Source: an uncultured Alphaproteobacteria bacterium | Lineage (GTDB): Bacteria > Pseudomonadota > Alphaproteobacteria > Sphingomonadales > Sphingomonadaceae | DNA: 64,000 bases | Direction of reading: 5' to 3' | Assembly (NCBI GenBank): GCA_903934325.1 | Contig: CAIZNH010000010.1 | Coordinates: 124,001 to 188,000, forward strand | Shown: positions 55,250-57,983 of the stretch, in pieces | Layout of the letters: every line of letters begins with the position of its first letter | Numbering within the stretch: position 1 is the stretch's first letter | The notes under the pieces: model-generated | Told to the model about the DNA's origin: nothing | Seen by the model: only the letters and a program-made list of their open reading frames with translations | The model's database searches: none | Position numbers and translations under genes: made by a program

Positions 55250-56470
55250 ATGGCCCAGCCCCAGAAAGTCGTCCTCGCCTATTCGGGCGGTCTCGATACC
55301 AGCGTCATCGCCAAGTGGCTGAGCGTCGAGCGTGGCCTCGAAGTGGTGACCTTCACCGCCGATCTCGGCCAGGGAGAGGAAATCGAGCCCGCGCGCGCCA
55401 AGGCCAAGGCGATGGGCATCCCCGATGATCACATCTTCATCGAGGACCTGCGAGAGGAATTCGTGCGCGATTTCGTCTTCCCGATGATGCGCGCCAATGC
55501 CCGCTATGAAGGCGACTACCTGCTCGGCACCTCGATTGCCCGCCCGCTGATCTCCAAGCGCCTGGTCGAGATCGCGCACCAGACCGGCGCGGACTTCATC
55601 GCTCACGGCGCGACCGGCAAGGGCAATGATCAGGTGCGCTTCGAACTCAGCGCCTATGCGCTCGATCCGGACATCAAGGTGATCGCCCCGTGGCGCGAAT
55701 GGGATCTGACCAGCCGCACCGCGCTGATCGCATGGGCCGAGGCGCACCAGATCCAGGTGCCCAAGGACAAGCGCGGCGAAAGCCCCTTCTCGACCGACGC
55801 GAACCTCCTGCACACCTCGTCGGAAGGCAAGGTGCTGGAAGACCCGTGGCAGGAGACGCCCGACTACGTCTATTCGCGCACGGTCAATCCGGAAGACGCG
55901 CCGGATGTGCCCGAATACATCACCATCGATTTCGAGAAGGGTGACGGCGTTGCCCTGAACGGCGAGGCGATGAGCCCCGCCACCCTGCTTGCTGCGCTCA
56001 ACGATCTGGGGCGCAAGCACGGCATCGGCCGGCTCGATCTGGTCGAGAACCGCTTTGTCGGCATGAAGAGCCGCGGGATGTACGAGACCCCGGGCGGCGA
56101 GATCTATGCCCGCGCGCACCGCGGGATCGAGCAGATCACGCTGGATCGCGGCGCAGCGCATCTCAAGGACGAGCTGATGCCGCGCTATGCCGAGCTGATC
56201 TATAACGGCTTCTGGTTCTCGCCCGAGCGCGAGATGCTGCAGGCGGCGATCGACCACAGCCAGGACAAGGTCACCGGCACGGTGCGCCTGAAGCTCTACA
56301 AGGGGCTAGCGAGTGTGGTCGGCCGCAAGTCGCCCTATTCGCTCTATTCCGAGGCCCATGTGACATTCGAGGATGATGCCGGGGCCTACGACCAGAAGGA
56401 CGCGGAAGGCTTCATCAAGCTCAACGGCCTGCGCCTGCGCCTGCTGGCCCGCCGCAACCGGGACGCCTGA
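55250..56470 (+). CDS. argG: Argininosuccinate synthase
   Basis: Joins citrulline and aspartate in arginine synthesis, using ATP. The 406-residue protein starts [18 protein letters not shown], with the ATP pyrophosphatase loop SGGLDTS, and has [14 protein letters not shown] and RHGIERI-like [12 protein letters not shown] in the C-terminal half. Length is normal. It stands alone, followed by a long stretch without any convincing gene. Confidence 0.98.
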
Positions 56471-56534: not shown

Positions 56535-56622
56535 CTGACGTCAGCCGGGCGGTTTCGTTCCCGGCGCATCAGGCATTTTCGCAAAATGCGACGAGCGGTT
56601 GACTTATCCACTCGTGTCCACA
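56535..56622. other. Cluster of palindromes and DnaA-box-like repeats
   Basis: Within 90 bases lie a perfect palindrome CTGACGTCAG (56535-56544), a perfect hairpin GCATTTT-CGC-AAAATGC (56573-56589), and two direct DnaA-box-like 9-mers, TTATCCACT (56604-56612, 8 of 9) and GTGTCCACA (56614-56622, 7 of 9). TTGACT at 56599-56604 could be a -35 element. The function is open: a promoter with regulators for the RNA that follows, or a DnaA-binding spot. Confidence 0.4.
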
Positions 56623-56639
56623 GGCCAAATCGCCCGGAG

Positions 56640-57246
56640 TGGAAAACTAAGGCTTCGGAATGTTGCCAGAACGCCGGTTGAGGCGCACTTTGAACCTGTC
56701 TTCGGGACACCAACCAGCCGGAACAGAAAGCCGCAAGGCCTTGAAGTTCCCAGGGGAAAATCCCAAGGATGGCGGTGGCAATTGTCCACGCGCCCGCCGA
56801 GAGAGGGCATGCAGGAGGCTTCGGCCAAAGGCAAGCCGGCTCGTTTGAAGCGGGAGCGACGCTAAAGCCACCGGACAGGCCGCGAACCTGGCCGGAACGG
56901 GTGATGGAGAGGAACGCAAGTTCCAAACCGCCGCAAGCCCGGATCGGAGGAAGGGCAAGGCCTCGGCCAAGCGACTGCGCAAGGCAGCGAGAATTCGGCA
57001 GGCTTTCGGGCCGATCGAAGGACGCTAGCGGGCAGGAGCGAAAGCCGGATGCCGGCGCGAGCGCCGGTGAGCAATCCCGGTGCGAAAGGTGGCAAGACCG
57101 GACGCGCAGGGGCCAGACATCGGGCGCCAAGCACGCCCCGCAAAAGCAGGGAAGACGGAAGGTTCGCCGGAAGTCAGCCAAGCCAAACGGGGGGTCCACA
57201 CGCCGGTGAGAGTGGGGTCGGCAGCAATGCCGGCCCCATTTGCTTT
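56640..57246 (+). ncRNA. Candidate long structured non-coding RNA
   Basis: The stretch between argG and rlpA is 976 bases without a credible gene. From about 56640 the plus strand is purine-rich and poor in T, unlike the coding strands around it, and holds many short hairpins: TGTC-TTCGG-GACA (56697-56709), GCC-GCAA-GGC (56730-56739), GGAAC-GCAA-GTTCC (56911-56924), CCGGCG-CGAG-CGCCGG (57052-57067) and the closing TGGGGTCGGC/GCCGGCCCCA. Open frames here have odd composition (Cys/Arg-rich). It lacks the core motifs of RNase P RNA, tmRNA and SRP RNA. Ends are approximate and the RNA nature is inferred. Confidence 0.45.
57213..57246 (+). terminator. Terminator-like hairpin at the end of the candidate RNA
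   Basis: TGGGGTCGGC (57213-57222) pairs with GCCGGCCCCA (57229-57238), including one G.U, around AGCAAT, and is followed by TTTGCTTT. It is the last strong hairpin before rlpA and the most likely 3' end of the candidate RNA. Confidence 0.5.
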
Positions 57247-57446: not shown

Positions 57447-57983
57447 ATGTGGACGGGAATCCCCATGACCAGCCTGACGGCTCGGACCCTGCGCAACGCG
57501 CTGATCGCGGGCGGGCTTGTCCTTGCCCCGCTCGCCGCATCGACTGCTGCGACCCCGTCCGATGGCACGCTCACGCTCGAAGCGAGCGCCGAGATTGCTG
57601 CCGCCACCGAAATGATGCCGCTCGTCGCCGCGCCTGTTGCTGCTCCGGCGGAAAGCCAGCCTGTCGAAATGGAAGCCGAAACCGGCACCGCGATCGGCAG
57701 CGGCAGCGCGTCCTATTACGCCAGCAAGTTCCACGGTCGCCGCACCGCCAGCGGCGAAGCCTTCGACAACGGCGCGATGACCGCAGCACACCGTTCCCTG
57801 CCCTTCGGCAGCCTCGTACGCGTCACCAACCCCGCCAATGGCCGCAGCGTCGTGGTGCGCATCAATGACCGCGGCCCCTTCAGCCGCGGCCGGTTGATCG
57901 ACGTCAGCCGCGCAGCCGCCGAGGAACTCGGCATCGTCGCGCGCGGTCACGGCACGGTCGAGCTCGAACTGCTCGAAAGCTAG
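57447..57983 (+). CDS. rlpA: RlpA-like double-psi beta-barrel lipoprotein/exported protein
   Basis: A 178-residue protein with a signal peptide (about residues 1-35, LVLAPLAASTAA) and the RlpA domain: SASYYASKFHGRRTASGEAFD, AHRSLPFGSLVRVTN and VRINDRGPFSRGRLIDVS, where the DRGPF aspartate is essential in lytic RlpA. RlpA proteins cut naked glycan strands at the septum. There is no lipobox and no SPOR domain, so this is a short soluble version. ATG 57447 has AAGG 9 bases upstream; ATG 57465 is an alternative. Confidence 0.88.
   Translation: MWTGIPMTSLTARTLRNALIAGGLVLAPLAASTAATPSDGTLTLEASAEIAAATEMMPLVAAPVAAPAESQPVEMEAETGTAIGSGSASYYASKFHGRRTASGEAFDNGAMTAAHRSLPFGSLVRVTNPANGRSVVVRINDRGPFSRGRLIDVSRAAAEELGIVARGHGTVELELLES

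Follow-up and report, generated by a model that had tools for sequence, protein, structure and literature searches.

A conserved unit between argG and an rlpA-like gene in Sphingomonadaceae with the marks of a large structured non-coding RNA gene

The argG-rlpA gap and its features

The window (the whole stretch of 64,000 nucleotides analysed in our study) carries a conserved unit at positions 56604-57245, inside the gap between argG and an rlpA-like gene. As far as the sequence can tell, and with no transcript evidence, this unit bears the marks of an autonomous, rightward-read gene for a large structured non-coding RNA: covarying helices, a three-box array, a TTG-17-CAnnnT pair that resembles a promoter and keeps a fixed distance, and a conserved end hairpin. 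The inferred RNA is about 550 nt long (approximately 56697-57245), poor in T, and closes with a near-invariant GNRA hairpin. The features are the following:

55250-56470, plus strand: argG, named from its translation
56604-56611, plus strand: box 1, TTATCCAC, DnaA-box-like; TTnTCCA in 129 of 129 aligned copies, final C in 127
56614-56621, plus strand: box 2, GTGTCCAC, 10 bp from box 1 and followed by A; TCCAC in 129 of 129 copies, next base A in 111 of 129
56639-56646, minus strand: box 3, inverted, GTGGAAAA here and GTGGATAA in many relatives; GTGGAWAA in 127 of 129 copies
56663-56668, plus strand: putative -35 element TTGCCA; TTG-N20-CAnnn(T/C) at offset 59 from box 1 in 126 of 129 copies
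56669-56685, plus strand: 17-bp spacer, with GANTC in most relatives and not in the window copy
56686-56691, plus strand: putative -10 element CACTTT, from the promoter alignment of 129 copies
56697-57245, plus strand: large structured non-coding RNA, supported by conservation and covariation; inferred ends set by the promoter (5') and the hairpin (3')
56773-56873, plus strand: long arm with helices 56773-76/56870-73, 56793-98/56849-54, 56801-03/56840-42 and 56806-08/56835-37 and hairpin 56817-26 (covariation and slid control)
56911-56924, plus strand: GGAAC-GCAA-GTTCC hairpin; stack 56912-15/56920-23 above all 60 nulls
57001-57012, plus strand: covarying hairpin (mixed-genus covariation and slid control)
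57119-57207, plus strand: 3' domain with closing helix 57119-27/57200-07, helix 57134-39/57189-94, inner helix 57153-56/57173-76 and UUCG hairpin 57161-68 (covariation and slid control)
57211-57240, plus strand: near-invariant 3' hairpin, loop GCAA, read as the terminator by inference; not called in a consensus terminator scan
57447-57983, plus strand: rlpA-like gene, named from its translation

The first-pass annotation, made from the letters of the window, had described 56640-57246 as T-poor and purine-rich, and both descriptions hold. T makes up 11.4% of this segment, which falls in the lowest 0.95% of sampled 607-nt segments (64 kb, both strands; median 17.0%), and its 60.5% of purines exceeds every sampled segment (maximum 60.1%). 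Its start at 56640 does not stand, as 56604-56691 is read as promoter DNA, the RNA start is inferred near 56697, and the feature is larger than was annotated. Neither the upstream DnaA-like/GANTC promoter block nor the spread across many genera had been part of that annotation.

Conservation and covariation of the fold

Minimum-energy folding of the region is unremarkable (z = -1.55 for the plus strand and -0.98 for the minus strand, with 20 shuffles each); since folding energy alone is not special, the evidence for an RNA rests on conservation and covariation. Covariation was assessed on stacks of four adjacent column pairs, compared with alignments simulated along the tree, in which each column evolved independently. 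From 113 loci of the genus we took 101 extracts (97 distinct) of 625-740 bases with short flanks, leaving out 11 repeat loci and L113, and the 97 distinct copies were aligned by sequence only. Four stacks exceeded all 60 nulls: 57135-38/57190-93, 56793-96/56851-54, 56912-15/56920-23 and 57153-56/57173-76. The third of these belongs to the GGAAC-GCAA-GTTCC stem that had been singled out before; it is present where described, and it covaries. When other genera were added (125 sequences kept, 124 distinct, after leaving out four without the 3' motif; 40 nulls), stacks with E=0 were found in 57133-40/57188-95, 56793-96/56851-54, 57001-04/57009-12 and 56773-76/56870-73. The helices of the long arm at 56801 and 56806 are weaker in this mixed-genus set (E of 0.075 and 0.275). 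Of 27 pairs predicted in the 3' domain, 10 show one or more changes on each side in an alignment of 45 sequences.

It is important to note that three more stacks with E=0 contained numerous non-standard pairs and were not counted, namely 56797-800/56847-50, whose beginning extends the 56793 helix, and two others from 56701-04; such stacks imply that the null leaves some signal of shared ancestry or alignment. No single column pair reached E<0.05 against the tree null, and among the best-scoring single pairs many are non-standard. In the supported stacks, G-U cells outnumber A-C cells by about 5:1 (500 versus 97, with cells of overlapping stacks counted repeatedly), an excess by which the plus strand fits as the RNA strand. 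In the sequences of other genera alone, the listed helices pair in 0.61-1.00 of cells versus means of 0.29-0.51 for slid controls, with one helix offering only 4 cells, and two helices have no clear G-U excess there (G-U to A-C of 5 to 13 and 8 to 7). This comparison is not fully independent, because the mixed-genus covariation set contained the same sequences.

The 3' hairpin pairs in all cells of the other-genus sequences yet barely varies, so covariation says little about it. The description of a terminator-like hairpin with a T-rich tail was right about the hairpin and only in part about the tail, TTTGCTTTGGG, which is moderately T-rich. The loop is of TTCG type rather than GCAA in two other-genus loci (L142 and L148), and elsewhere in the genome the core of the hairpin occurs once in 400 kb sampled from G105. 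Short motifs recur in the RNA bodies of three sets of related sequences: CGGA reaches 1.9-2.3 times and CCGGA about 2.6-4 times the shuffled expectation, and CCGGA/CGGAA and CTTCGG motifs exceed the dinucleotide-shuffled expectation (in distant copies, 5 of 15 loci, where the end-hairpin expression did not match, were left out of the counts). From their sequence, the recurring CGGA/CCGGA motifs may serve as binding sites or belong to the fold.

The region has no match at gathering score in Rfam 15, a collection that includes RNase P, tmRNA, SRP, 6S, OLE, GOLLD and ROOL. With relaxed filters, a single match appeared in the region at E=3.4, far under its gathering score, and tRNA/tmRNA calling returned none there. 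A literature search limited to titles and the beginnings of abstracts, with structured-RNA surveys checked for a few words and without their supplements, gave no recognisable report of this RNA. Taken with helix stacks that covary beyond tree-simulated nulls and pair in other genera, the empty Rfam result upholds the first-pass reading of a long structured RNA of unknown class.

Spread among genomes and neighbouring genes

The DNA of the gap matches 20 of the 41 genomes searched (its own included, with a single match there), all of its own genus, and argG and rlpA flank the homologue in all 20. A 70-base 3' piece is present in 100 of 114 genus genomes, with a weak part match only in G083, and is absent from 14 of the 114; of the 93 high-quality genomes seven lack it, the one-contig G003 being an example. 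Three near-complete genus genomes without this piece (G003, G114 and G078) may reflect loss, divergence or an assembly gap; G003 also lacks the three-box pattern. By record name, the 3' motif was found, among the matches listed, in Erythrobacter, Porphyrobacter, Qipengyuania, Altererythrobacter, Croceibacterium, Pelagerythrobacter, Aurantiacibacter, Pontixanthobacter and Parerythrobacter.

At the level of the family, a covariance model built on the 3' domain matched 184 of 397 genomes at E<=0.01, a tally that overstates the spread because its weak-E matches include hairpin-only false positives. We examined 40 of these loci, nearly all from different genera. In the better ones (L124-L155; 32 loci, one per genus), argG lies just upstream in 31 and an rlpA-like gene downstream in 31, in opposite orientation in L148. 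Two weak loci (L156, L162) also have argG; six of the 40 (L157-L161 and L163) were rejected as hairpin-only false positives, with no argG, rlpA or 5' array. A sequence-only model of the block matched 165 of 397 family genomes in 41 of 96 genera, the weakest matches being unverified, and only 3 of 318 genomes in a class-wide sample, all three from the family of the window. In the searches run, the RNA is found only in this GTDB family. Plasmid and phage collections gave no match to the region. Some genomes have second, weaker matches, mostly to the end hairpin, and the sequence-only model gives two matches in some.

We also studied 15 distant loci, some of which the covariance model scores weakly. 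Ten have a recognisable end hairpin, with bodies of 343-703 bases and about 15% T. Eight have argG (L365, L366, L368-L372 and L375), four of them with rlpA too (L369-L372), and the remaining seven (L363, L364, L367, L373, L374, L376 and L377; genera g82, g103 and g58) have neither gene within 5 kb. The RNA gene thus lies elsewhere in three distant genera and is not a leader of its neighbours. In four of the seven distant loci read (L363, L364, L373 and L376; g82 and g103), a short-chain dehydrogenase, identified by translation, lies up to 2.4 kb upstream, on the side that argG occupies in other genomes, and is not always adjacent. Rfam on 12 distant loci returned only suhB, in one flank; this small RNA (suhB, also mmgR) lies at 341-417 of L376 on the minus strand.

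Promoter block, rival explanations and possible role

The three boxes form an array of 43 bp (56604-56646), and the 129 copies compared were picked by an expression allowing three changes in boxes 1 and 2. Across the order, 104 of 396 genomes and 16 of 84 genera have the three-box pattern, and those genomes all belong to the family of the window; among the matches listed, each genome has one match, spanning 43 bases, and the reversed control was empty. The spacing is not absolute: L150 and L155 have a one-base length change and the most distant copies differ more. The ninth-base A of the DnaA box TTATCCACA follows box 2 in 111 of 129 copies and box 1 in only 2 of 129; since it is so rare at box 1, a factor other than DnaA is possible. 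Exact TGTGGATAA stands as box 3 in 11 of the 15 distant copies, counted by eye. Pairing of boxes 1 and 3 as an RNA stem was rejected, as one flanking C/G position per arm varies independently (by eye) and the spacing is nearly rigid; for these reasons we read them as DNA sites.

Downstream of the array, 56663-56691 resembles a sigma70-type promoter. Its three exceptions among 129 copies have offset 60, offset 48 and no strict match. L137 and L154 lacked the 5' motif under the first expression, and L154 was left out of the promoter, box and mixed-genus covariation sets. A consensus scan called no promoter here, the -10 being CAnnnT, and did not call the end terminator either. Of 31 other-genus promoters, 28 carry GANTC between -35 and -10 (L136 was left out of the count), as do 66 of 97 same-genus copies, mostly at two positions (46 and 45 copies). 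Within the T-poor RNA body, GANTC occurs 35 times in 68,770 bases; the 28 of 31 compares with an expectation of 0.013 at this rate, or about 0.08 from a composition of 65% G+C by our own arithmetic. The site is absent from 31 of the 97 same-genus copies, including that of the window, while most relatives have one, so methylation control may differ inside the genus. In the window spacer, GAACG and GGTTG stand near the usual GANTC places. GcrA is encoded in the same genome (PF07750 over cut-off).

Comparable promoters are known from Caulobacter. According to the part of the source available (PMC4287350), transcription start sites that carry GANTC in the interval from -35 to -10 become active at 40-60 min, and podJ P2 has GANTC at -24 plus a DnaA motif at -82. 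The accessible text of that source likewise makes ctrA P1 and podJ P2 similar to the present block, with GANTC in the core promoter and, for podJ P2, the upstream DnaA motif; they differ in driving protein genes, and the window's own copy lacks GANTC. By analogy, the box array, its spacing and the GANTC site point to DnaA and GcrA/CcrM as regulators, a link that remains unproven. DnaA would bind the three-box array and, in species with GANTC in the spacer, GcrA would act on the CcrM-methylated site, from which we infer as likely, on sequence alone, that the RNA is made in a replication-linked part of the cell cycle. The RNA itself may be trans-acting, its fold offering a scaffold or a platform to which a protein or mRNAs bind. 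This is a weak inference with two grounds: promoter block and end hairpin stay with the unit although the neighbouring genes differ from genus to genus, and the short motifs CCGGA/CGGAA recur in it.

The most serious alternative, which we regard as unlikely without dismissing it, is that the unit serves chiefly as DNA to which DnaA binds, a regulatory locus like DARS or datA, with the transcript secondary. The three boxes have nearly fixed spacing, as would suit such a site, and the E. coli DARS core likewise consists of three DnaA boxes (PMC4245941, as far as the consulted part goes); in all 10 one-contig genus genomes compared, the unit also lies at a comparable distance from parB (0.345-0.397 of the genome), which argG synteny alone could explain. 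Against this reading stand about 550 bases downstream of the promoter that are kept as RNA helices, with G-U pairs favouring the plus strand, and the constant distance that ties the array to the promoter. The same DnaA-like boxes are all that speaks for a replication origin or terminus, to which we give practically no credence: the main GC-skew sign changes in G105 lie near 0.5-0.64 and 1.92-2.08 Mb and the RNA at 0.869 Mb (20 sampled 20-kb stretches, a noisy sample that also shows minor reversals at 0.16 and 2.40-2.64 Mb), and the chromosomal parB is 1.09-1.37 Mb away, at the fraction given above, in all 10 genomes (three genome lengths were rounded). With neither a skew switch nor parB close to the RNA, identity with oriC was rejected. 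In Sphingomonadales, dnaA is reportedly not conserved near the origin (PMC8116508, seen in excerpt).

The position between argG and rlpA in nearly all 32 genera sampled would fit a cis-acting leader or attenuator of rlpA, or an argG trailer. We find this improbable, for the unit carries a promoter and an end hairpin of its own, about 200 nt separate that hairpin from rlpA, and, besides the seven distant loci without either gene within 5 kb, four more have argG without rlpA. A Csr/Rsm-type sponge similar to CsrB could draw on the 17-20 GGA that each RNA holds on average and on AnGGA at 4.17 versus 3.73 when shuffled (genus set); it appears very improbable, as AGGA is not enriched and AnGGA hardly so, and CsrA was not found in the window's own genome by a search that, as a control, finds CsrA in 3 of 14 known genomes. 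As for an old protein-gene remnant, the main rival in the first-pass annotation, or a small-protein gene, scarcely anything is left in its favour. The longest of the six frames is open for a median of 158 codons, as G+C-rich sequence allows. In homologues, however, the frame of the 146-aa ORF at 56769 runs into a stop at a median of about 50 codons, in line with the earlier statement that no credible protein frame exists; gap lengths are mostly not multiples of three, and no frame is common to the homologues. Compensatory base pairs, together with a promoter and an end hairpin conserved where no frame is, also weigh against a decayed or small coding sequence.

We therefore favour a stand-alone gene for a large structured non-coding RNA, likely timed by DnaA/GcrA and, on weaker grounds, trans-acting. 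We hold this overall reading to be probable rather than secure, with expression, binding and function all inferred. In kind, to judge by its sequence, the RNA resembles the large ornate RNAs, and it matches no tested family. OLE, GOLLD, ROOL and the 'Soda Lake' smtA motif are also structured, several hundred nt long and mostly of unknown role (PMC12286853 and PMC11109978, both partly available), the smtA motif being reported only from Thioalkalivibrio in the portion of PMC11109978 at hand; they occur in other taxa, whereas the present RNA has no Rfam match and has a promoter block with an inferred link to replication. CcnA of Caulobacter is likewise an alphaproteobacterial non-coding RNA tied to cell-cycle regulators, but it lies in the replication origin and is presumed to be CtrA-activated (PMC8959179, consulted in part). 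The present RNA is about 0.37 of the genome from parB; identity with CcnA was rejected since the RNA is not located at the origin, and the sequences were not compared. The idea of DnaA/CcrM-linked non-coding RNAs is not new, as promoters of Caulobacter cell-cycle non-coding RNAs have been scanned for DnaA and GANTC sites, with control predicted for DnaA, CcrM, GcrA or CtrA (PMC5988900, from the sections available). Those are single-genome predictions in another order, while the present sites are kept over many genera; again, sequences were not compared. EcpR1 of Sinorhizobium, a trans-sRNA that modulates alpha-rhizobial cell-cycle control, is akin in its theme and differs in being a small RNA of another order (PMC4414408, in extract; sequence relation not compared).

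Few large structured bacterial RNAs are known and the function of most is not, and this one is kept across dozens of genera as a stand-alone unit whose promoter block points to a testable, replication-linked timing. A more far-reaching proposal, which we advance only as a tentative possibility, is that this family-wide RNA has its synthesis tied to replication through DnaA and GANTC methylation and serves as a trans scaffold or regulator, forming an RNA arm of the alphaproteobacterial DnaA-GcrA-CcrM circuit. The RNA provides a concrete entry into the roles of RNA in the alphaproteobacterial cell cycle.
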